A stretch of DNA of 64,000 nt from an uncultured Acetatifactor sp. (GTDB lineage Bacteria > Bacillota > Clostridia > Lachnospirales > Lachnospiraceae): assembly GCA_947631615.1 (NCBI GenBank), contig CANRLX010000007.1, positions 1 through 64,000 on the forward strand, given 5' to 3'. Under the pieces are notes generated by a model. That model worked only from the letters and a program-made list of their open reading frames with translations, did not search any database and was not told the DNA's origin. The translations under genes and the position numbers were made by a program. Positions 33,275-64,000 of this stretch are shown here, piece after piece; the first letter of the stretch is position 1; each line of letters opens with the position of its first letter.

Positions 33275-33306
33275 ATGCAATTCGTTCTTTGCGAGTTGCA
33301 TTTTTT
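33275..33306 (+). terminator. Terminator of the scpA operon
   Basis: A 10-bp stem, ATGCAATTCG / CGAGTTGCAT (one wobble), with a 7-base loop is followed by six T and preceded by an A-run. Transcription could therefore stop in both directions. Confidence 0.9.
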
Positions 33307-33316
33307 GTGTTATACT
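33289..33316 (+). promoter_or_regulatory. Candidate promoter of the decarboxylase cluster
   Basis: TTGCGA (33289-33294) and TATACT (33311-33316) have 16-base spacing. The -35 element lies within the terminator arm. Another A+T-rich stretch (33325-33350) could supply a different -10. Confidence 0.4.
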
Positions 33317-33366: not shown

Positions 33367-34797
33367 ATGAGTACTACTTCAAAAGCGAGTCAAAGAATAG
33401 CGGCTTTACTCGACGACAACAGTTTCGTTGAAATCGGCGGACTTGTCACGGCAAGAGCTACTGATTTTAATCAGAAACCAACGGAGACTCCCTCGGACGG
33501 CGTAGTCACCGGATACGGAGTCATCGGCGGGAATCCTGTGTATGTGTACAGCCAGGATGCAGCCGTTATGAACGGCACCATCGGTGAGATGCACGCAAAA
33601 AAGATCGGAAACCTCTATGATCTGGCGATGAAGACGGGAGCGCCCATCATCGGCCTGATCGACTGTGCCGGACTGCGGCTGCAAGAGGCGACCGATGCCC
33701 TGGCGGCGTTCGGAGAGATTTATCTGAAGCAGACGCTGGCTTCCGGCGTGATCCCCCAGATCACCGCCATCTTTGGAACCTGTGGCGGCGGACTGGCTCT
33801 GTTCCCCACCCTGACGGATTTCACCTTCATGGAGGAGAAGAGCGCAAAGCTGTTCGTCAACGCGCCCAATGCGCTGGACGGCAACGAGATTTCCAGAAAT
33901 GACACTTCCTCCGCAAAATTCCAGTCTGAGGAGAGCGGTATTGTGGATGTGGTCGCCGACGAGGCTTCCATCTATACAAAGATACGGGATCTGGTGAGCT
34001 TTTTGCCCGCGAACAACGAGGACACGGTGAGCCTTGCCGAGTGCACGGACGATCTGAACCGGGTGAACGAGGAGCTGGCAGGCTGTGTGGGAGATACCTC
34101 TGTGGCTCTGTCCATTCTGGCGGACGATCAGGATTTCTTTGAGGTGAAGGCAGGCTATGCCAAGGAGATGGTGACGGGCTTCTTACGCCTGAACGGTGTG
34201 ACCGTGGGCGCGGTGGCCAACCGCTCCGAGGTGCTCGACGAGAAGGGCGAGACGGCCGAGAAGCTGGATGCGGTTCTGACCGCGAAGGGCTGCGAGAAGG
34301 CGGCGGATTTTGTAAACTTCTGCGACGCCTTCGGGATTCCCGTGCTGACCCTCACCAATGTGAAGGGCTACGAGGCTACCGTGTGCTCCGAGAAGCGCAT
34401 CGCCAAGGCCGCTGCCAGACTGGCCTACGCGTTTGCAAACGCCACCGTTCCCAAGGTGAACGTGGTGATCGGACAGGCGTACGGCACCGCCTATGTGGTG
34501 ATGAATTCCAAGGCGTTGGGAGCGGATATTACGATGGCATGGCCGGACGCAAAGATCGGCACCATGGACAGCAGGCTGGCGGCCAAGATCATGTACGATG
34601 GCCAGGGCGCTTCCGTGATCGAGGAGAAGGCGGCGGAGTACGAGGCGCTTGCCCTCAATGTGAACAGCGCTGCAAGGAGAGGATATGTGGATCAGATCGT
34701 CAGTGCGGCTGACACCCGGAAATATGTGATCGGCGCATTGGAAATGCTGTTTACAAAGCGCGAGGATCTTCCCGACAAAAAACACGGAACAGTCTAG
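33367..34797 (+). CDS. Carboxyltransferase subunit, MmdA/12S-like, divergent
   Basis: A 476-residue crotonase-fold carboxyltransferase related to the alpha subunit of methylmalonyl-CoA decarboxylase and to the 12S subunit of transcarboxylase. These enzymes move a carboxyl group between an acyl-CoA and biotin. Both halves are present: GLIDCAGLRLQEATDAL, GTCGGGLALFPTLTDFTF and, in the second half, AYGTAYVVMNSKALGADI with AWPDAKIG. Several family marks are altered. The usual GARIQEG, GPCAGG and GFLPG motifs read GLRLQEA, GTCGGG and NVKGYEA, so the acyl-CoA substrate cannot be assumed. It opens a five-gene cluster with a membrane anchor, biotin carrier, OadB pump and a second carboxyltransferase. 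Function inferred from family and context. Confidence 0.83.
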   Translation: MSTTSKASQRIAALLDDNSFVEIGGLVTARATDFNQKPTETPSDGVVTGYGVIGGNPVYVYSQDAAVMNGTIGEMHAKKIGNLYDLAMKTGAPIIGLIDCAGLRLQEATDALAAFGEIYLKQTLASGVIPQITAIFGTCGGGLALFPTLTDFTFMEEKSAKLFVNAPNALDGNEISRNDTSSAKFQSEESGIVDVVADEASIYTKIRDLVSFLPANNEDTVSLAECTDDLNRVNEELAGCVGDTSVALSILADDQDFFEVKAGYAKEMVTGFLRLNGVTVGAVANRSEVLDEKGETAEKLDAVLTAKGCEKAADFVNFCDAFGIPVLTLTNVKGYEATVCSEKRIAKAAARLAYAFANATVPKVNVVIGQAYGTAYVVMNSKALGADITMAWPDAKIGTMDSRLAAKIMYDGQGASVIEEKAAEYEALALNVNSAARRGYVDQIVSAADTRKYVIGALEMLFTKREDLPDKKHGTV

Positions 34798-34814
34798 GAA
34801 AGGGTGGTTATAAG

Positions 34815-35612
34815 ATGAAGAAATTTGTTGCTTTGGTATGTATGATTACCTGCATCTTCGGATTGACCGCCTGCGGAGACGAGGAGAGCTTGACCAAGCA
34901 GGAGGCCGATAAGGTTTCCGCGGCGGAGGAGATAGCGGCCGACGTCATTGTTCCCCTGATCGAGGGATATGCCAACGATGAGGAGCTTGACCTGAGCCAG
35001 TACAGTGCGGAGGAGATCGCATACTTTGTGGAGAGCAGCTCCGGCGTTGTGACGGACGGCTATGCGTTCCGCAACGCGGTGACCTCCTTTCAGTCCGGTT
35101 TGGAGGATGTGGGCGAGATCGTGTCCGTCGGGGACGCGGAGGCTGTCATCGACGACAAGCAGATCATCGTGACGGTGCAGATCCAGGGCTCCGAGAAGGA
35201 CGCGGAGGCGGAAGTGATCTTCAGCAACGATATTTTCCTGGATCTGGAGTCGGCGGCTCTAAACCCGATCTCCGGCATGGGAGAGCTGGTGAAAAACGCG
35301 GCGTTAAATACCCTGATCGGCATGGGCACCGTGTTTATCGTGCTGATCCTGATCAGCGCGATCATCTCCTGTCTCAAGATCGTTCCGAAGCTCCAGGAAA
35401 AATGGACGAAGAAGGAAACGCAAGACGCGCTGGCAGCCGGAAACGGCAACAGCCAGGCGCCGGCCGCAGAGAGCTATGAGGCAGAGGATCTGTCCGGCGA
35501 TCAGGAGCTCGTTGCGGTTATCGCGGCTGCGATCGCGGCATACGAGGGCTCCGCTTCCGCGGACGGCTTTGTCGTTCGCTCTATTCACAAGGTTAATCGC
35601 GCAAGACGCTAA
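34815..35612 (+). CDS. OadG/MmdD-like anchor subunit fused to a lipoprotein head
   Basis: A 265-residue protein. The N-terminus is a lipoprotein signal with lipobox LTAC (cysteine near residue 20). An extracellular domain of about 130 residues follows, then one membrane segment (TLIGMGTVFIVLILISAIIS) with the KIVPKL start of the OadG family. The cytoplasmic tail ends in ELVAVIAAAIAAYEG and FVVRSIHKV, the conserved end of OadG/MmdD anchors. Usual OadG proteins have only about 80-130 residues, so the external domain is an addition. The subunit should hold the carboxyltransferase and biotin carrier at the OadB pump. The gene starts 17 bases after the previous stop. Confidence 0.85.
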   Translation: MKKFVALVCMITCIFGLTACGDEESLTKQEADKVSAAEEIAADVIVPLIEGYANDEELDLSQYSAEEIAYFVESSSGVVTDGYAFRNAVTSFQSGLEDVGEIVSVGDAEAVIDDKQIIVTVQIQGSEKDAEAEVIFSNDIFLDLESAALNPISGMGELVKNAALNTLIGMGTVFIVLILISAIISCLKIVPKLQEKWTKKETQDALAAGNGNSQAPAAESYEAEDLSGDQELVAVIAAAIAAYEGSASADGFVVRSIHKVNRARR

Positions 35613-35636
35613 AAATTATATTTGGAGGAATGAAAA

Positions 35637-36011
35637 ATGAAAAATTATACCATCACCGTCAACGGAAACGTATATGATGTAGTAGTGGAGGAGGGCGCAT
35701 CCACCGGCGCGCCGGTGGCAGCCAAGGCTCCCGCAGCGCCCAAGGCGGCACCCAAGGCGGCTCCCGCCACAGCACCCAAGGCAGCCGGCGCGGCCGGAAG
35801 CGTGCGGATTGAGGCCGGCGCAGCCGGAAAGGTGTTCAAGATCGAGGCAAACGTCGGTCAGGCAGTAAAGAAGGGAGATCCGGTCGTTATCGTTGAGGCA
35901 ATGAAGATGGAGATCCCTGTGGTGGCTCCTCAGGACGGCACTGTGGCAAGCGTCAATGTGGCAGTGGGAGATTCCGTTGAGGCCGGTGCTCTGCTTGCGA
36001 CCTTAAACTAA
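35637..36011 (+). CDS. Biotin carrier protein of the decarboxylase
   Basis: A 124-residue biotinyl protein. After a short beta start (MKNYTITVNGNVYDVVVEE) comes an Ala/Pro/Lys-rich flexible linker (about residues 23-54), then the biotinyl domain. The biotin attachment site is K90 in EAMKME. It shuttles carboxyl-biotin between a carboxyltransferase and the membrane pump. It is the only biotin carrier in the cluster, and neither carboxyltransferase has its own biotinyl domain, so both must share it. GGAGG precedes the ATG at 35637. Confidence 0.95.
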   Translation: MKNYTITVNGNVYDVVVEEGASTGAPVAAKAPAAPKAAPKAAPATAPKAAGAAGSVRIEAGAAGKVFKIEANVGQAVKKGDPVVIVEAMKMEIPVVAPQDGTVASVNVAVGDSVEAGALLATLN

Positions 36012-36060
36012 TCAGGGACTGATTGGAAACTAAGGCAGAACAGAGACAGGAGGTTAAAAA

Positions 36061-37212
36061 ATGGATTATATTATATCTACGTTTGGCAACCTGGTGCATC
36101 AGACGGCGTTTTTCAACCTGGATTGGAAAAACTATGTCATGATCGCCGTTGCGTGCTTTTTCCTTTATTTGGCTATCCGTCACGAGTTTGAGCCGCTTTT
36201 GCTGGTGCCCATCGCGTTCGGCATGCTGTTGGTAAACATTTACCCCGACATCATGCTGCACCCGGAGGATGCCGCCAACGGGACGGGCGGATTGCTGTAC
36301 TATTTCTATCAGCTGGACGAGTGGGCGATCCTGCCCTCCCTGATCTTCATGGGCGTGGGCGCGATGACCGACTTCGGTCCCCTGATCGCCAACCCCAAGA
36401 GCTTTCTTTTGGGAGCGGCGGCACAGTTCGGTATTTTTGCGGCATACTTTGGCGCGATCGCATTGGGCTTCAACGATATGGCGGCGGCTGCGATCTCCAT
36501 CATCGGCGGAGCGGACGGACCTACGTCCATCTTCCTTGCAAGTAAGCTGGGGCAGACCGCTATCATGGGGCCGATCGCGGTGGCGGCGTACTCCTATATG
36601 TCGCTTGTGCCGATCATCCAGCCTCCGGTTATGAAGCTTCTGACCACGGAGAAGGAGCGGCAGATCAAGATGGGACAGCTTCGTCCGGTCTCCAAGCTGG
36701 AGAAGATTCTCTTCCCGATCATCGTTACCATCGTGGTGTGTCTGATCCTTCCCACCACGGCGCCCCTGGTGGGTATGCTGATGCTGGGCAACCTGTTTAG
36801 AGAGTCCGGTGTGGTGAGACAGCTGACGGAGACCGCATCCAACGCTCTGATGTATATCGTGGTGATCCTGCTGGGTACCTCCGTGGGAGCTACCACCAGC
36901 GCGGAGGCATTCTTAAATGCGGATACCCTGAAGATCGTAGTCCTGGGTCTCGCCGCGTTTGTCTTTGGCACGGCGGCCGGCGTCCTGTTCGGCAAGCTGA
37001 TGTGCATTGCCACCAAGGGCAAGGTGAACCCTCTGATCGGCTCCGCCGGTGTGTCCGCAGTGCCTATGGCGGCCCGCGTGTCCCAGAAGGTGGGCGCGGA
37101 GGCGGATCCCACCAACTTCCTGCTGATGCACGCTATGGGACCCAACGTGGCGGGCGTAATCGGAACCGCGGTGGCGGCCGGAACCTTCATGGCTATCTTT
37201 GGAGTATTTTAA
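36061..37212 (+). CDS. Na+-translocating decarboxylase beta subunit (OadB/MmdB family)
   Basis: A 383-residue integral membrane protein with around nine hydrophobic segments. It is the channel that decarboxylates carboxyl-biotin and exports Na+. Family motifs are clear: [12 protein letters not shown], the discontinuous-helix segment [10 protein letters not shown], and a C-terminal [15 protein letters not shown]. The Asp in GGADGPT is the known essential residue of OadB. AGGAGG lies ahead of the ATG at 36061. The position between biotin carrier and 5S-like subunit fits a Na+-pumping complex. Family evidence does not distinguish oxaloacetate from malonate or methylmalonyl-CoA systems. Confidence 0.94.
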
Positions 37213-37254
37213 GGGATATGGATTGATCAAAAAAGACAAGGAGGAAATTCGTAA

Positions 37255-38682
37255 ATGCCAGAACAAGCTAAAAAACCGATTAAGATTACAGAGACTGTTT
37301 TGCGTGACGCTCACCAGTCTCTGATTGCGACCAGAATGCCCACCGAGCTGATGCTTCCCATCATCGACAAGATGGATAAGGTCGGATATCACTCCGTGGA
37401 GTGCTGGGGCGGCGCGACCTTCGATGCCTCCCTCCGCTTCCTGAAGGAGGATCCCTGGGACAGACTGAGAAAGCTCCGCGACGGATTTAAGAAAACCAAG
37501 CTGCAGATGCTCTTCCGCGGACAGAATATCCTGGGCTACAGGCCCTACGCGGACGACGTGGTGGATTACTTCGTACAGAAGTCCATCTCCAACGGCATTG
37601 ACATTATTCGTATTTTTGACTGCTTAAACGACCTGCGCAATCTGCAGGAGGCGGTGAACGCCACCAACCGTTTCAAGCAGAAGGAGGGAAGAGGACACGC
37701 GCAGGTTGCCCTGTCCTACACCCTGGGCGACGCCTACACGCTGGAGTACTGGACCGGCATGGCGAAGAAGATCGAGGAGATGGGAGCGGATTCCATCTGT
37801 ATCAAGGATATGGCAGGACTGCTCGTTCCCTACAAGGCGACCGAGCTGATCACCGCGATGAAGAGCGCCACCAAGCTGCCGATCCAGCTGCACACCCACT
37901 ATACCTCCGGTGTGGCGGGAATGACTTATCTGAAGGCCGTGGAGGCCGGCGTCGACGTGATCGATACCGCTATGAGCCCCTTCGCGATGGGAACCTCTCA
38001 GCCGGCTACCGAGGTGATGGTGGAGACCTTCAAGGGGACTCCCTACGATACCGGCTTTGATCAGAACCTGCTGGCGGAGATCGCGGACTACTTCCGTCCT
38101 TACAGGGACGAGTGCCTGAAGAACGGCCTGCTCAATCCCAGAGTGATGGGCGTTGACATCAAGACGCTTCTGTATCAGGTGCCCGGCGGAATGCTCTCCA
38201 ACATGGTGAGCCAGTTGAAGGAGCAGAACGCGGAGGATAAGTATTACGATGTGCTGAAGGAGATCCCCAGGGTCCGCAAGGATCTGGGCGAGCCCCCTCT
38301 GGTTACCCCCTCCTCTCAGATCGTCGGCACCCAGGCGGTATTCAATGTGCTGATGGGCGAGCGCTACAAGGTTGCCACCAAGGAGACCAAGGGGATGCTG
38401 CGCGGCGAGTACGGCCAGACCGTAAAGCCTATGAGCCAGGAGGTTATCGACAAGGTGATCCCCGGCGAGGAGAGGATCACCTGCCGCTATGCGGATACCC
38501 TGGAGAACGAGCTTGACAAGCTGGAGGGCGAGATGAAGGAGTGGAAGCAGCAGGACGAGGATGTGCTGAGCTACGCTCTGTTCCCCCAGGTGGCTACGGA
38601 CTTCTTCAAGTACCGTCAGGCACAGCAGGAGAAGGTGGATATGTCACAGGCGGACGTTAAGAACGGCGCTTATCCGGTGTAA
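37255..38682 (+). CDS. Oxaloacetate/pyruvate carboxyltransferase, OadA/5S-like, no biotin domain
   Basis: A 475-residue TIM-barrel carboxyltransferase of the OadA/PycB/5S family, which moves carboxyl between oxaloacetate/pyruvate and biotin. The metal ligands are D18 in ETVLRDAHQS and H213/H215 in LHTHYTSG. The carbamylated lysine is K184 in CIKDMAG. The substrate pocket FRGQNILGY is intact. The chain stops after the conserved PYC-OADA domain and lacks the C-terminal biotinyl domain of full-length OadA (about 590 residues), so it depends on the separate carrier at 35637. Together with the MmdA-like protein it gives two carboxyltransferases per carrier, the composition of a transcarboxylase. 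Confidence 0.92.
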   Translation: MPEQAKKPIKITETVLRDAHQSLIATRMPTELMLPIIDKMDKVGYHSVECWGGATFDASLRFLKEDPWDRLRKLRDGFKKTKLQMLFRGQNILGYRPYADDVVDYFVQKSISNGIDIIRIFDCLNDLRNLQEAVNATNRFKQKEGRGHAQVALSYTLGDAYTLEYWTGMAKKIEEMGADSICIKDMAGLLVPYKATELITAMKSATKLPIQLHTHYTSGVAGMTYLKAVEAGVDVIDTAMSPFAMGTSQPATEVMVETFKGTPYDTGFDQNLLAEIADYFRPYRDECLKNGLLNPRVMGVDIKTLLYQVPGGMLSNMVSQLKEQNAEDKYYDVLKEIPRVRKDLGEPPLVTPSSQIVGTQAVFNVLMGERYKVATKETKGMLRGEYGQTVKPMSQEVIDKVIPGEERITCRYADTLENELDKLEGEMKEWKQQDEDVLSYALFPQVATDFFKYRQAQQEKVDMSQADVKNGAYPV

Positions 38683-39945: not shown

Positions 39946-40920
39946 ATGAGCGCGATAAGTGATGGACAAATGGTTTTAACTTTTGATAATACTTTGGAGG
40001 TCAAAGAAGCACCGCCTACAGTATATCCGGAAATAGTATTTGATTTTGATAAAATATTTTCCGAACCATTGACAGAAGAAAATATGAGAAATAATAATTC
40101 GCTAGCGATTCTCGGAGAAAGTCTTTCTGTTCTTAAAAAAATGAAAGACAATTCTGTTCAGCTTATTTTTGCGGATGCCCCCTACAATATAGGGAAAGAT
40201 TTTGGAAACAATAGTGACAAGTGGGAAAGTGTGCAGGCTTATATAGAATGGTGCAAAACATGGATTGATGAGTGTATGCGTGTTCTTTCAGATACAGGCT
40301 CTATGTATTTTATGACAGCAACACAACATATGCCATATTTAGATGTATATGTTTCTGAGAAATACAATGTGTTGTGTAGAATTATTTGGACATATGATAG
40401 CTCCGGTGTTCAGTCTAAGAGAATATTTGGCTCTCTCTATGAACCGATCTTAATGATAAACAAAAACAAAAAGGCTTCTTATGTTTTTAATTATGATGAT
40501 ATTCTGGTTGAAGCAAAAACAGGAGCAACGAGAAAACTAATCGATTATAGAAAAAAAATACCGCAGCAATATAGTACCAAAAAGATCCCGGGAAATGTCT
40601 GGGATTTTAGCCGTGTAAGATTTAAGATGGATGAATACGAAAATCACCCGACACAAAAACCAGAGGCATTACTTGAACGCATTGTAAAAACATCTTCTAA
40701 TCCTGGTGATGTAATTCTGGATCCGTTTTCAGGTTCTTTTACAACATCAGCTGTAGCGTCACGTTTACGACGCGTTTCTATTGGGATTGATTTGAATGAA
40801 GAATACTACGAAATCGGATTGCGACGTACCGGCATTGCAACAGAAAGAAACGGGAAAAATCTTGAAAAAATAAAAGTGAGAAAGACAAACGCAAAATCAA
40901 AATATGTCAGAGGTGAGTAG
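39946..40920 (+). CDS. Adenine-specific DNA methyltransferase, beta class, YhdJ-like
   Basis: A 324-residue N6-adenine (possibly N4-cytosine) methyltransferase. The catalytic motif comes first (DAPY, residues 77-80, within IFADAPYNIGKDFG) and the SAM-binding motif last (DPFSGSFTT from residue 259), the order of beta-class enzymes. The catalytic motif has Ala where DPPY is usual. The stretches TYDSSGVQ, LVEAKTGATRKLIDYRK, PGNVWDF and ENHPTQKPEALLERI recall E. coli YhdJ, which methylates ATGCAT; this is from memory of that family. An N-terminal extension of about 45 residues is not in YhdJ. Codon use is A+T-rich, unlike the flanking genes. AAAGG precedes the ATG. With the downstream endonuclease it forms a type II system. 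Confidence 0.9.
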   Translation: MSAISDGQMVLTFDNTLEVKEAPPTVYPEIVFDFDKIFSEPLTEENMRNNNSLAILGESLSVLKKMKDNSVQLIFADAPYNIGKDFGNNSDKWESVQAYIEWCKTWIDECMRVLSDTGSMYFMTATQHMPYLDVYVSEKYNVLCRIIWTYDSSGVQSKRIFGSLYEPILMINKNKKASYVFNYDDILVEAKTGATRKLIDYRKKIPQQYSTKKIPGNVWDFSRVRFKMDEYENHPTQKPEALLERIVKTSSNPGDVILDPFSGSFTTSAVASRLRRVSIGIDLNEEYYEIGLRRTGIATERNGKNLEKIKVRKTNAKSKYVRGE

Positions 40921-40981
40921 TGTGAAAGAAAGTAAATTAAGCTCAAAACGTGAATTAGACACAAAAAGAAGGCTCACATAG
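40904..40981 (+). CDS. 25-codon ORF overlapping the methyltransferase end
   Basis: An ATG at 40904, in another frame than the methyltransferase, opens a 25-residue basic peptide (MSEVSSVKESKLSSKRELD...) that stops with TAG at 40979-40981. It could be a remnant of a deleted gene or a leader peptide. No ribosome site is convincing and no family is recognised. Confidence 0.25.
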   Translation: MSEVSSVKESKLSSKRELDTKRRLT

Positions 40982-41166
40982 TGAACCATCTTAGAGGTAT
41001 TCCCACCTAGATAGAAGAGGCGCACCTGCACATCAACAGCGAAACGGGTGGGTGCATCTGATGTTGATGCCGGGATGCCTTAATAATTAAGTCTATTGTA
41101 ACACGTAAATGCGGAGGTGTAAAACACTTTCATTACTATTTGTGCCGCCAACTGAAAGGCGGCGGA
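40982..41166 (+). other. Non-coding spacer with overlapping inverted repeats
   Basis: There is no credible ORF. CATCAACA (41031-41038) is complementary to TGTTGATG (41062-41069), and GCACC (41022-41026) to GGTGC (41051-41055). These two pairings cross, so they are alternatives or a pseudoknot. GATGCC is repeated at 41066 and 41075. GCCGCC/GGCGGC forms a small hairpin just before the endonuclease start. The segment is locally G+C-rich within an A+T-rich island. Confidence 0.5.
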
Positions 41167-41178
41167 ATGGAGATTAAA

Positions 41179-42291
41179 ATGAAAATCACAGAAGCATTTG
41201 TCGCTGAGATATTGAAAAAAGAATACCCTGAAGATTTTCAGAAAATCTATGATAATAGTCCCATGCTTCAATATCTGGACAAAAAAATGAAAGCAGTACA
41301 TGGAAACAGTAAAGCCCGCAGGAGTTTAGCCAATATCTACGCTATTTATTCTATCCTTTATTTTTATCAAAATGAGTTTTATGAAAAGAAAGAACAGTAT
41401 CGTCACTTTGATGGCTATGACTACATGAAATTGTTTACCTTCTATCGTAGTTTGTATGGCGGAAGCAAATTACAAAACCATGCCTTAAACTCTCGTGTAA
41501 ACGGAGAGTTTCGCAATAAAGTTAAAGATACAGTAAATGATTTAATTATCATGAACAACGGCAAGTATCTTATCCACATTGATTACATTTACGTGGCCGG
41601 TCATGATATAAGCAGAGTTTCCTGTATGATTATTGAGAGATATGTGGAGCTTCTTATTGCCAAAGACCACGCATTGATAAGTATTCTTGAGGAATTAAAA
41701 AAGCTGACAGATTATTCGGAAAAGAAAGATAAAATCAAAGCTTTGCTTACGGAAGATGCAGAAGCCCGTATTTTTGAAATAATCAGCTATGCTATACTAA
41801 AAAACCATTATAAAAATATTACAGTTTTTTTCGGCTATACACAGGATAAAATTGAAGAAGTTGCCTTAGAGTTATTTAAGACAGGCAGAACAAATGCAAA
41901 CGATGGTGGAATTGATTTTGTAATGAGACCCATAGGAAGATTTTTCCAGGTGACAGAGGTTAATAATTATGATAAATATTTGCTGGATATTGATAAGGTG
42001 ATGCACTTTCCGGTTAGTTTTGTTATCAAAACCAAGCAGAGCAAGGAAATGGTGTTGGAGGATTTAGAGGAATATATTGCACAGCGCACCAGTGGTATGT
42101 TTATTTTGGAGAAAAGATACCGAAAAGCCATTGAAGAAATTATTACTATCAATGAGCTTCAAACATGGACAGAGGAACTGAAGGATAGTGATATAGATGA
42201 AATTATCCGAGACATTGACATATATTATAAAATTGAAATGAACATAGAATTTGAAGATGGTGAAGAGGAGCAGCAGATTCATGATTTTTAG
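41179..42291 (+). CDS. Probable type II restriction endonuclease
   Basis: A 370-residue, A+T-rich gene directly after the methyltransferase. Residues 1-235 are mainly helical. The C-terminal third has a candidate PD-(D/E)xK-type core: DGGIDF (D246) and then FFQVTEV (Q257, E260). In Mrr-like nucleases the pattern is GxD...QxK; here the position of the catalytic Lys holds Thr, so the lysine may be supplied elsewhere or the core may be atypical. The role as endonuclease is inferred from the pairing with the methyltransferase and from this core. If the methyltransferase resembles YhdJ, the target could be ATGCAT. The start at 41179 has GGAG six bases upstream; ATG 41167 is an alternative. Confidence 0.72.
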   Translation: MKITEAFVAEILKKEYPEDFQKIYDNSPMLQYLDKKMKAVHGNSKARRSLANIYAIYSILYFYQNEFYEKKEQYRHFDGYDYMKLFTFYRSLYGGSKLQNHALNSRVNGEFRNKVKDTVNDLIIMNNGKYLIHIDYIYVAGHDISRVSCMIIERYVELLIAKDHALISILEELKKLTDYSEKKDKIKALLTEDAEARIFEIISYAILKNHYKNITVFFGYTQDKIEEVALELFKTGRTNANDGGIDFVMRPIGRFFQVTEVNNYDKYLLDIDKVMHFPVSFVIKTKQSKEMVLEDLEEYIAQRTSGMFILEKRYRKAIEEIITINELQTWTEELKDSDIDEIIRDIDIYYKIEMNIEFEDGEEEQQIHDF

Positions 42292-50253: not shown

Positions 50254-51588
50254 ATGGCAAAGTTTACATTTGTGGGAGGAATCCATCCCTACGACGGCAA
50301 GGATCTGTCAAAGGACAAGCCGATACGGGATATCCTGCCGGCTTCGGAGCTGGTGTACCCTCTTTCACAGCATATCGGAGCCCCCGCGAAGGCGATCGTG
50401 GAGAAGGGCGACAGAGTCCTTGCAGGGCAGAAGATCGCGGAGAGCGGAGGATTTGTGTCCGCGCCGATCCATGCCTCCGTGTCCGGCACGGTGAAGGCGG
50501 TGGAGCCCCGCAGAGTGGTGTCGGGCGATCTGGTGTCCAGCGTGGTCGTGGAGAATGACGGAAAGTATGAGGAGGCGCCGCATACGCCGGCCGGACCTAT
50601 GGAGGAGATGACCAGGGAGGAGATCCTTGCCGTGATCCGGGAGGCCGGTATCGTGGGAATGGGCGGAGCGGGATTTCCGACCCATGTGAAGCTCTCGCCG
50701 AAGGCGCCGGAAAAAATCGACTATGTGATCGTCAACTGCGCGGAGTGCGAGCCCTATCTGACCTCCGACTACCGAAGGATGCTGGAGGAGCCGGAGAAGC
50801 TGATCGGCGGGCTGAAAATTCTGTTGCGGCTCTTTGACAACGCCCAGGGGATCCTGGCGGTGGAGGACAATAAGCCGGACTGTGTGGAGCTGCTTCGGAG
50901 AATGGTCAGGGAGGAGAAGCGCATCCGCGTGAAGCCCCTGAAGACCAAATACCCCCAGGGGGCGGAGCGGCAGCTGATCTATGCCGCCACCGGACGCAAA
51001 ATCAACTCATCCATGCTGCCTGCGGACGCGGGCTGTGTGGTGAACAACGTGGACACGGTGGTGGCCGTTTATCGGGCGGTGGCGGAGGGGCTGCCCCTCA
51101 TGGAGCGCATCGTCACAGTGACGGGGGATGCGGTGAGCGAGCCCCAGAATTTCCGCGTGCGCATCGGCACCAGCTATCGTGAGCTGGTGGAGGCGGCGGG
51201 CGGATTTCGGGTGCCTCCGGAAAAGATCATCTGCGGGGGGCCGATGATGGGAATTGCCATGTTTGGGCTGGATGTGCCGACCACCAAGACCTCCACGGCG
51301 CTCCTCGCCTTTGCGGAGGACGAGGCGGCGCGGACGGAGCCTGGCCCCTGTATCAACTGCGGTCGGTGTGTGGAGGTCTGCCCGGGGAGGGTGGTCCCCA
51401 GCAGGCTGGCGGACTACGCGGAGCACTTTGACGAGGAGGCCTTTTTGGCCAACTACGGCATGGAGTGCTGCGAGTGCGGCTGCTGCAGCTTTATCTGCCC
51501 CGCCAAAAGGCCGCTGACACAACAGATCAAATCCATGCGCAAGATACAGCTTGCCAAGAAGAAAAAGAAGCAGGAGGCCAAGGGATGA
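50254..51588 (+). CDS. rnfC: Rnf complex subunit RnfC
   Basis: RnfC is the peripheral subunit that takes electrons from, or gives them to, NAD(H) in the ion-pumping ferredoxin:NAD+ oxidoreductase. The 444-residue protein has an N-terminal barrel-sandwich part (HIGAPAKAIVEKGDRVLAGQ), the Rossmann-like NADH/FMN region (MGGAGFPTHVKLSP, then CAECEPYLTSD), and two [4Fe-4S] motifs, CINCGRCVEVCP (from C366) and CCECGCCSFICP (from C405). Its C-terminus is Lys-rich. It starts the order C-D-G-E-A-B seen in clostridia and acetogens. The stop overlaps the rnfD start. Confidence 0.97.
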   Translation: MAKFTFVGGIHPYDGKDLSKDKPIRDILPASELVYPLSQHIGAPAKAIVEKGDRVLAGQKIAESGGFVSAPIHASVSGTVKAVEPRRVVSGDLVSSVVVENDGKYEEAPHTPAGPMEEMTREEILAVIREAGIVGMGGAGFPTHVKLSPKAPEKIDYVIVNCAECEPYLTSDYRRMLEEPEKLIGGLKILLRLFDNAQGILAVEDNKPDCVELLRRMVREEKRIRVKPLKTKYPQGAERQLIYAATGRKINSSMLPADAGCVVNNVDTVVAVYRAVAEGLPLMERIVTVTGDAVSEPQNFRVRIGTSYRELVEAAGGFRVPPEKIICGGPMMGIAMFGLDVPTTKTSTALLAFAEDEAARTEPGPCINCGRCVEVCPGRVVPSRLADYAEHFDEEAFLANYGMECCECGCCSFICPAKRPLTQQIKSMRKIQLAKKKKKQEAKG

Positions 51589-62507: not shown

Positions 62508-64000
62508 ATGGCAGAGATCAATTTGAGCAAGTATGGCATCACCGGCACTACGGAAATCGTGTACAACCCTTCCTATGAGTTGTTGTTTGAAGAGGAGACC
62601 AAGTCCGATCTTGAGGGCTACGAGAAGGGCCAGGTGAGCGAGCTGGGCGCGGTAAACGTAATGACCGGTATCTACACAGGCCGTTCCCCCAAAGATAAGT
62701 ATATCGTTATGGATCAGAACTCCAAGGACACTGTCTGGTGGACTTCCGATGAGTATAAGAACGACAACCATCCCATGACGGAGCAGACCTGGGCAGTGGT
62801 CAAGGAGATCGCTCAGAAGGAGCTGTCCAACAAGAGACTCTTTGTCGTGGACGCATTCTGCGGTGCCAACAAGGACACCCGCATGGCGGTTCGTTTCATC
62901 GTGGAGGTCGCATGGCAGGCTCACTTCATCAAGAATATGTTTATCCAGCCCTCTGAGGAGGAGCTGAAGGGCTTCGAGCCTGACTTCGTCGTATACAACG
63001 CTTCCAAGGCAAAGGTTGAGAATTTCAAGGAGCTTGGGTTAAATTCCGAGACCTGCGTTGCCTTCAATATCTCCAGCCGCGAGCAGGTGATCATCAACAC
63101 CTGGTACGGCGGAGAGATGAAGAAAGGTATGTTCTCCATGATGAACTACTACCTGCCTCTGAAGGGCATCGCTTCCATGCACTGCTCCGCAAACACCGAT
63201 ATGAACGGCGAGAACACCGCTATTTTCTTCGGTCTGTCCGGCACCGGCAAGACCACCCTCTCCACCGATCCCAAGCGTCTTCTGATCGGCGATGACGAGC
63301 ACGGCTGGGACGACAAGGGCGTGTTTAACTTTGAGGGCGGATGCTATGCGAAGGTTATCAACCTTGACAAGGATTCCGAGCCCGACATCTACAACGCCAT
63401 CAAGCGCAACGCGCTTCTGGAGAACGTAACGCTGGACGCAAACGGCAAGATCGACTTTGACGACAAGAGCGTGACGGAGAACACCCGCGTATCTTATCCT
63501 ATCGACCACATCGAGAAGATCGTGCGTCCGGTTTCCGCAGCGCCCGCCGCTAAAAACGTGATCTTTTTGTCCGCAGACGCATTTGGAGTACTGCCTCCCG
63601 TGTCCATCCTGACGCCGGAGCAGACCCAGTACTACTTCCTGTCCGGCTTCACTGCAAAGCTGGCCGGTACGGAGCGCGGTATCACCGAGCCTACCCCGAC
63701 CTTCTCCGCTTGCTTTGGCCAGGCATTTTTGGAGCTGCATCCCACCAAGTATGCGGAGGAGCTGGTGAAGAAGATGGAGCAGAACGGCGCGAAGGCGTAT
63801 CTGGTAAACACCGGATGGAACGGCACCGGAAAGCGTATCTCCATCAAGGATACCCGCGGCATCATCGACGCTATCTTAAACGGCGACATCGAGAAGGCTG
63901 CCACCAAGAAGATCCCTCACTTTAACTTCGAGGTTCCTACGGAGCTTCCCGGCGTGGACACCAACATTCTGGATCCCCGCAACACCTATGCGGACGCTTC
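62508..64000 (+). CDS. pckA: Phosphoenolpyruvate carboxykinase (ATP), 3'-truncated by the window
   Basis: PckA interconverts oxaloacetate and PEP with ATP/ADP; in fermenting anaerobes it can run in the PEP-carboxylating direction and make ATP. The first 497 codons are present, of about 535 usual, so about 35-40 residues are missing at the right edge. [11 protein letters not shown] is the substrate region. The P-loop is GLSGTGKTT (G242-T250, with K248 and T249). The Mg/Mn site follows in [16 protein letters not shown] lies about 11 bases upstream of the ATG at 62508; the ATG at 62501 is out of frame. Codons are optimised compared with the neighbours (AAC, ATC, GGC dominate), which suggests high expression. 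Confidence 0.97.

Follow-up and report, generated by a model that had tools for sequence, protein, structure and literature searches.

The present analysis is concerned with a stretch of 64,000 nucleotides (contig CANRLX010000007.1, positions 1 to 64,000, forward strand) from an uncultured Acetatifactor sp. of the Lachnospiraceae, referred to below as the window, and with a cluster of five genes in it which resembles a sodium-ion (Na+)-translocating decarboxylase. Five adjacent open reading frames (ORFs) on the plus strand, separated by 17, 24, 49 and 42 bases, were found by ORF and Pfam check at the coordinates and in the order which an earlier note on this DNA had claimed for them, and the Pfam matches of all five products exceed the cut-off. 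The first gene (A, 33367..34797, 476 amino acids (aa)) encodes a carboxyltransferase-fold protein similar to MmdA, 12S and PccB with a diverged active site (Carboxyl_trans, 359.8 bits); the second (G, 34815..35612, 265 aa) an OadG with a predicted lipoprotein signal, a probable outside domain, one membrane helix and a cytoplasmic tail (OAD_gamma at aa 161-244); the third (C, 35637..36011, 124 aa) a biotin carboxyl carrier with the motif EAMKM, in which AMKM starts at aa 88 and includes Lys90 (Biotin_lipoyl, 66.5 bits); the fourth (B, 36061..37212, 383 aa) an OadB-type Na+-translocating carboxybiotin decarboxylase (OAD_beta, 517 bits); and the fifth (O, 37255..38682, 475 aa) an OadA/5S-like carboxyltransferase (PYC_OADA, 186.1 bits; HMGL-like, 54.8 bits). 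No match to a biotinyl domain was found in A or O by Pfam and curated profile searches, which bears out the view of the earlier note that neither carboxyltransferase carries one and supports its proposal that the two homologues share one carrier and one pump. Judged by its sequences, the set is probably a variant of the biotin-dependent Na+ decarboxylases, an oxaloacetate pump in which the carrier is detached, OadG is a lipoprotein and a 12S-like subunit of diverged sequence is present.

The features of an oxaloacetate decarboxylase (OAD) were found in O, C and B. Subunit O scored 738.2 bits against the OadA carboxyltransferase model NF008985 (cut-off 718), holds the active-site motifs LRDAHQ, KDMAG and HTHYT, and has OadA (2nx9) as its best match by sequence in the PDB; it scored below the cut-off of TIGR01108, which describes OadA with a fused biotinyl domain (659.7 in comparison to 756.5 bits), and of the 5S model NF008984 (534.7 in comparison to 827 bits), and a biotin motif near the C end was found in 0 of 87 related O proteins. 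Subunit C combines a Biotin_lipoyl match above cut-off with EAMKM, as a biotinylatable carrier should, and ExMKM is present in all 99 related C proteins of at least 100 aa. Subunit B scored 480.1 bits against TIGR01109 (cut-off 190.6), which identifies it as an OadB-type membrane subunit, and the GGADG and GPN motifs were found in 92 of 92 related B proteins. Taken together, O, C and B look like a Na+-pump OAD with a detached carrier, possibly a reversible one. The earlier note had held that a second carrier dedicated to one of the carboxyltransferases would speak against sharing; in the genome to which the window belongs (3.47 Mb, 191 contigs, 94.9% complete), Biotin_lipoyl gave two matches at E 0.001, namely C and a protein on another contig (C47), and the latter is AccB (TIGR00531 above cut-off) of a complete fabD-fabG-fabF-accB-fabZ-accC-accDA locus, so that, for this genome, the idea of a further carrier reserved for A or O was rejected.

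Subunit G matches the small membrane subunit of such pumps, with 80.6 bits for OAD_gamma (cut-off 27) and 42.2 bits for TIGR01195 (cut-off 36.05). It begins with a predicted lipoprotein signal peptide (34815..34874, plus strand) with LTAC at aa 17-20 and the lipobox cysteine at Cys20. In 40 aligned G proteins this cysteine (consensus LTACG) is nearly invariant (at least 90%); the domain past it is variable, and the membrane helix and tail (AVIAAAIAA...VVRSI) which follow are conserved. The lipobox pattern was found within the first 70 residues of 80 of the 89 Lachnospiraceae G proteins in comparison to 1 of 37 from the phylum set. The domain at aa 28-151 (34896..35267, plus strand), delimited by the secondary structure and confidence of an AlphaFold2 model, is predicted to be an extracytoplasmic alpha+beta domain, its side of the membrane following from the lipobox; the model consists of helices and a four-stranded sheet, with confidence of 92-98 in blocks of aa 31-150. 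DUF3887 matched under threshold in four of the five G proteins tried, and a PDB fold search returned weak matches, several of them NTF2-like (best E 9e-3), and nothing at E of 0.001 or less, so that the NTF2-like label is taken from weak matches. It thus appears that G gained a lipobox and, probably, an NTF2-like domain.

The gene arrangement is kept far beyond chance, because the order A-G-C-B-O was retained, up to the contig limits, in 80 of 80 related loci (the best 80 of 495 relatives from one scan, most of them titled Lachnospiraceae or a member genus); 66 of the 80 extend to O, and B precedes O in all 66. The earlier note had proposed such a survey of gene order in Lachnospiraceae. In a panel of 120 Lachnospiraceae genomes from 119 genera, A of at least 48% identity was found in 108, three of these being fragments, and B above cut-off in 110; the five-gene set is thus near-universal in the sampled family, and outside it the identity of A was at most 47% among the matches listed for 393 genomes of the class. 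In 60 OadB loci from 60 families of the phylum, each family code being represented once by a match from the upper portion of a listing rather than by a random draw, a profile search gave the order A-G-C-B in 26 and A-C-B in 7, and both A and O in 2 (L100 and L119).

Subunit A has GLRLQEA in place of the usual GARIQEG and GYEAT in place of the usual GFLPG, both usual forms being lost, as the earlier note had read. To compare A proteins, 11 of 86 alignment rows which were long-branched or Gcd-like (L115, L116, L117, L120, L121, L137, L150, L152, L153, L154, L156) were dropped, and nine Lachnospiraceae paralogues were set aside. Among 36 Lachnospiraceae A proteins, only 68 of the 169 columns that are invariant in 30 ordinary MmdA proteins were retained at a level of 90% or more, and the losses fall in both halves of the protein (in the alignment to the window protein, 46 of 86 and 48 of 76 columns). 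The GF/YLPG loop is in full form in 0 of the 36 aligned sequences, and G411 of the YGGAY motif is replaced by Ser or Thr in 33 of them. We take the YGGAY-type motif to be the second oxyanion-hole motif of A, and the role given to the Gly-Gly pair of A (Gly141 and Gly142) is likewise our assumption; literature searches on residue roles returned no papers. The median Kimura distances among 33 Lachnospiraceae loci were 0.70 for A, 0.28 for O and 0.21 for B, which gives an A/O ratio of 2.49 and an A/B ratio of 3.35, in comparison to an A/B ratio of 1.12 for 31 ordinary Mmd loci (rows of the kind dropped above, L086, and loci without A, B or O were excluded). Such rate and motif variability would fit a relaxed or changed function of A. 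The claim of the earlier note that A actively transfers carboxyl groups to or from an acyl-CoA and is coupled to O thus found no support, as A evolves about three times faster than the pump subunit and varies across the family in its GFLPG loop and in the second oxyanion-hole motif.

The score of A against TIGR01117, the model of the MmdA subfamily, was 420.1 bits in comparison to the 998.8 required, which is 579 bits short. No methylmalonyl-CoA mutase was found in any of the 120 Lachnospiraceae genomes, the one of the window included, by a search whose control matched in 8 of 14 named genomes. In 44 of the 60 phylum genomes, which could be obtained and were divided by hand, the mutase was present in 28 of 32 with an ordinary MmdA in comparison to 3 of 12 others (without A or with O). 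Because the mutase is absent from the 120 genomes and present in most ordinary-MmdA genomes, A is very unlikely to be a methylmalonyl-CoA decarboxylase, and methylmalonyl-CoA was rejected as its substrate, in line with the earlier note, by which the acyl substrate of A may be new.

Based on these results, we give about an even chance (roughly 0.5) to the reading that O, C, B and G constitute a Na+-coupled OAD with a detached carrier, in which A is mainly an accessory subunit. This reading is preferred because the scores of O and B exceed the curated cut-offs and the motifs of O, C and B are conserved family-wide; because A combines the high A/B ratio with the low number of retained columns, the A/B ratio being identical with or without AccC (3.29 and 3.29 in 9 and 15 loci); and because the mutase is missing, one Lachnospiraceae locus with the same O lineage (L183) has G-C-B-O without A, and pyruvate carboxylase is commoner in genomes without the cluster. 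In such a complex, O would shuttle the carboxyl group between oxaloacetate and the biotin on C, and B would decarboxylate carboxybiotin while moving Na+ or, alternatively, would be reversed by the Na+ gradient, so that pyruvate and CO2 yield oxaloacetate. Subunit G may anchor the complex to the membrane, and its lipid-anchored outside domain may sense or stabilise. Subunit A, of MmdA-like ancestry, would have lost the methylmalonyl-CoA role and would now be a core, carrier-docking or acyl-CoA-sensing subunit with weak or no acyl-CoA carboxyltransfer.

Several observations weigh against an accessory A and would fit a protein that still acts as an enzyme. In Lachnospiraceae A, residue Gly141 does not vary and Gly142 is conserved to at least 90%, 78 columns are at least 95% conserved inside the A clade, and the gene is retained in the 108 genomes. 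The full fold is also retained in an AlphaFold2 model (mean predicted local distance difference test score 89.1) whose best PDB matches are 8pn8 (template modelling (TM) score 0.92) and, among others, the 12S structure 1on3 (TM 0.91). A second A-less locus (L184) has an O from another lineage, which leaves L183 as the one locus where A may have been lost, and in two loci (L157 and L189) the order is A-G-C-O without an adjacent B, which fits a transcarboxylase of A and O better, both genomes having B-type genes elsewhere. In the two A-less Lachnospiraceae loci G is short (128 and 108 aa), and these two cases hint that A and a long G go together. The statistics on pyruvate carboxylase are open to a further objection, since the genera are not independent points. 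Full pyruvate carboxylase was found in 8 of 120 genomes, that is, in 4 of the 8 genomes without A and B in comparison to 4 of the 112 others (Fisher 5e-4), and either this enzyme or phosphoenolpyruvate (PEP) carboxylase was found in 5 of 8 in comparison to 4 of 112 (p 3e-5). If the less strict set of 12 genomes without A is taken instead, the values are 4 of 12 in comparison to 4 of 108 (p 0.003) and 5 of 12 in comparison to 4 of 108 (p 4e-4), respectively. This anticorrelation is predicted both by a reversed pump and by the avoidance of a futile cycle, and therefore does not settle the direction of flux.

The direction may thus be the opposite of an anaplerotic one, a reading to which we assign somewhat less than even odds: PEP carboxykinase (PEPCK) would make oxaloacetate from PEP and the cluster would decarboxylate it, the whole being a way around pyruvate kinase which pumps Na+. 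Of the 108 genomes with A, 105 have PEPCK or a divergent protein similar to it (the two lists were split by score by hand, and an ambiguous fragment, G489, was left out), and in L187 the gene immediately upstream of A encodes the PEPCK-like protein. RnfC of the Rnf ion pump is above cut-off in 110 of 120 genomes; of the 99 genomes that have both A and Rnf, 36 have them on one contig, and in 32 of these the two lie no more than 25 kb apart. In the window, as context, RnfC (50263..51543, plus strand; TIGR01945, 510.1 bits) and an ATP-type PEPCK (62553..63962, plus strand; PF01293, 683.2 bits; NF006819, 932.7 bits) are located 17 and 29 kb downstream of A. Such proximity of PEPCK was seen in only 1 of 13 same-contig genomes (within 25 kb), so there is no general linkage. 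What speaks against decarboxylation is that the absence of the cluster goes with pyruvate carboxylase or PEP carboxylase, and that three A-bearing genomes (G430, G485 and G505, drafts 95-96% complete) gave no match to PEPCK, the PEPCK-like protein, full pyruvate carboxylase or PEP carboxylase. For the reverse direction, a passage on Nitrospina (PMC3578206) cites pump reversal (Dimroth and Hilpert 1984) and invokes it instead of pyruvate carboxylase, and a passage on butyrivibrio (PMC4478896) gives OAD as predicted in all 62 drafts and flags it as a possible oxaloacetate source. No assignment of the A subunit or of the flux direction was found in open-licence papers. As for the PEPCK-like proteins themselves, they form a divergent 571-aa family (L187:5795-7510; also L188 and L199) with 141 bits against NF006821 (cut-off 369); PEPCK was found in 79 genomes, the 571-aa relative in 34, and both in 1.

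A further reading, compatible with the OAD reading and tentative at best, is that C acts as a carboxybiotin hub: loaded by O from oxaloacetate or by a reversed B, it would serve other carboxyltransferases, and in lineages without AccB and AccC an orphan AccDA would take the carboxyl group from C, yielding malonyl-CoA without an ATP-dependent biotin carboxylase. AccC was not seen in 38 of 120 genomes in a survey with a pyruvate-carboxylase model, which scored five candidates per genome and was not a dedicated AccC search; absence was read by hand from the best E (6e-18 to about 1e-130, in comparison to about 1e-150 to 1e-190 for AccC). All 38 of these genomes have B above cut-off and 34 have A, and AccC is present in all 8 genomes without A and B, yet the difference (0 of 8 in comparison to 38 of 112) reaches only a Fisher p of 0.055. 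A FabD match was found in 23 of the 38, partial in G446 and broken in G467, and 19 of the 23 fab loci were fetched (G428, G446, G467 and G495 were left out). The results showed accB or accC in 0 of these 19 loci and AccDA in 11 of them (L206, L208, L209, L210, L211 and L219 included), with A present in all 11 genomes. Three of the 11 orphan AccDA are split into two frames and one (L213) is cut by the contig end; the 8 single-chain proteins and the AccDA of the window's genome hold all four zinc-finger cysteines, and the 8 are free of stops. The AccDA of L206 passes the equivalog cut-offs of both accD (360.5 over 317.45) and accA (360.3 over 319.3). Six fab loci have the order fabK-fabD-fabG-fabF-fabZ-accDA, and in the window's genome accB and accC are interposed; the gene labels were checked on the latter locus and L206, where the AccC, AccB, AccD/AccA, FabF, FabD, FabG, FabZ and FabK models scored above cut-off. 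On the O gene tree (32 rows), the AccC state changed at least 10 times.

Since AccB and AccC are missing at these loci, another carrier must charge AccDA unless a biotin carboxylase was missed, and with C at hand it is the obvious candidate for the carboxyl donor. The orphan AccDA loci thus pose a sharp question about the malonyl-CoA source where no biotin carboxylase is found, and if C is such a donor, malonyl-CoA formation would gain a route in which the carboxylation of biotin is not driven by ATP. Against this use of C, the genome of the window has a complete acetyl-CoA carboxylase, and the genome-wide search for a second carrier covered this genome only. Malonyl-CoA could also not be the sole use, as no FabD match was found in 15 of the 38 genomes and 12 of the 15 keep A; the cell could instead take up malonate or fatty acids from outside, and FabD could accompany another malonyl-CoA source. 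No description of AccC loss or of orphan AccDA was found in open-licence papers, and a Roseburia genome paper (PMC7478625) holds no mention of acetyl-CoA carboxylase. The possibility that A itself is the acetyl-CoA carboxyltransferase of AccC-less genomes was not favoured, given the AccDA kept in 11 of 19 loci, the unchanged A/B ratio, and the 12 genomes which keep A with neither AccC nor FabD. A PccB-type carboxyltransferase gene, perhaps an AccDA substitute, was observed directly beside fabD in genomes G422 and G410 (L204:2049-4565, also L143; and L147). An extension in which the products of all five genes together would provide carboxybiotin generally and without ATP seems to us doubtful; in Lachnospiraceae lineages that deleted AccB and AccC, C would be charged by O from oxaloacetate or through B by the Na+ gradient and would feed orphan AccDA, malonyl-CoA formation being a Na+-linked transcarboxylation and A serving as docking or sensing subunit.

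The model of the earlier note, by which A acts on a new acyl-CoA and makes up, together with O, an oxaloacetate:acyl-CoA transcarboxylase whose Na+-coupled valve is B, also seems to us unlikely. The retention of A, its conserved Gly pair and fold, and the two A-G-C-O loci argue for it; the fast evolution, the variable YGGAY-type motif and the loss of the GFLPG loop argue against it, no partner acyl-CoA pathway was identified, and the retention of A is not owed to fatty-acid malonyl-CoA, because 14 of the 17 genomes that gave no FabD match still have the gene. The earlier note had overlooked the lipoprotein domain of G, the near-universal occurrence in Lachnospiraceae and the relatives with no AccB and AccC at the fatty-acid locus. 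Of that model the shared carrier and pump stand, while activity of A remains unsupported, and it is fitted more closely by two other loci (L195 and L196, families f90 and f111). There, mutase operons run on into ordinary MmdA, OadG, carrier, OadB and OadA in the same five-gene order as in the window, with an A of 517 and 521 aa and an O from a clade other than that of the window, so that the set was assembled separately.

The phylogeny of both carboxyltransferases, also proposed by the earlier note, was reconstructed by quick, midpoint-rooted trees with Shimodaira-Hasegawa-like approximate likelihood ratio test (SH-aLRT) values only and no bootstrap. The 36 cluster A proteins of Lachnospiraceae group together as one clade, with an SH-aLRT of 100 and a stem length of 1.13 changes per column. 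The A proteins of L100 and L119 group within ordinary MmdA, their O proteins fall in a clade other than the Lachnospiraceae O, and both loci are located about 2 kb behind a mutase gene; a common origin with these loci was thus rejected. These tree positions and the mutase adjacency suggest that a pump with two carboxyltransferases arose on at least two occasions, one of them with an apparently functional methylmalonyl-CoA enzyme. L195 and L196 are better candidates for a Na+-pump-linked transcarboxylase than the Lachnospiraceae set. Finally, it is highly improbable that the set serves a propionate pathway as methylmalonyl-CoA decarboxylase, the OadA gene being a passenger in it: the A-G-C-B order is shared with 26 of the 60 phylum loci, most of them in mutase-bearing genomes, but the mutase is missing from all 120 genomes and, besides TIGR01117, the MmdC (80.2 of 200 bits) and MmdD (21.9 of 150 bits) models remain under cut-off.

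In comparison to known systems, the window set is similar to the Na+-translocating OadABG of Klebsiella, Salmonella and Vibrio in its O, B and G homologues, in the NF008985 match and in the B motifs, and differs from it by the separate carrier, the extra A and the lipoprotein outside domain on G; no citrate genes were found among the window neighbours looked at. In Enterococcus faecalis, OadH is an extra subunit of OAD and OadD a separate carrier. By description, this system is a precedent for an additional OAD subunit, there in a citrate operon. A passage of PMC8100219 describes its additional subunit as allowing a soluble form, and the abstract of PMC3198936 gives the operon as oadHDB-citCDEFX-oadA-citMG. 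All four subunits of MmdABCD (Veillonella, Propionigenium) have homologues in the set, with the A-G-C-B order of the ordinary loci sampled, whereas the window A is shorter, fast-evolving and far below TIGR01117, in genomes without the mutase. The 12S/5S/1.3S transcarboxylase of Propionibacterium, of which a Geobacter bemidjiensis operon has been predicted (a passage of PMC2996986), shares with the window set a 12S-like protein, a 5S-like protein and a carrier, and A matches the 12S fold. It has no pump subunit, whereas the window set has one together with OadG and an A without the MmdA/12S motifs; among the further loci, L157 and L189 are the only two in which O has no B next to it. No description of the five-gene complex was found in open-licence papers. 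The set bears on the oxaloacetate supply and the use of the Na+ gradient by Lachnospiraceae gut fermenters, and an accessory A, if true, would show how a carboxyltransferase can turn into an accessory subunit.

Some minor observations were also made. Lone genes of a second OadB-like type (L194:6363-7565 and L200:6243-7388) scored about 380-424 bits against TIGR01109, with neither carboxyltransferase nor carrier found beside them at these two loci, and further OadB-like matches in this range, mostly second copies, occur across the panel. Two records titled Gastranaerophilales (L005) and Muribaculum (L033) hold a Lachnospiraceae-type cluster with A 87% and 80% identical, respectively, and the names of these metagenome-assembled genomes look wrong. 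Five promoter-like sites were found in the region in comparison to a shuffle mean of 3.0, which is near the chance number; one of them, a weak site (33289..33316, plus strand; 9 of 12 consensus matches, with TG), lies 50 bases 5' of A. Just downstream, at 39946-42291, a DNA methyltransferase-like ORF and a 383-aa ORF resemble by eye a small restriction-modification insert.

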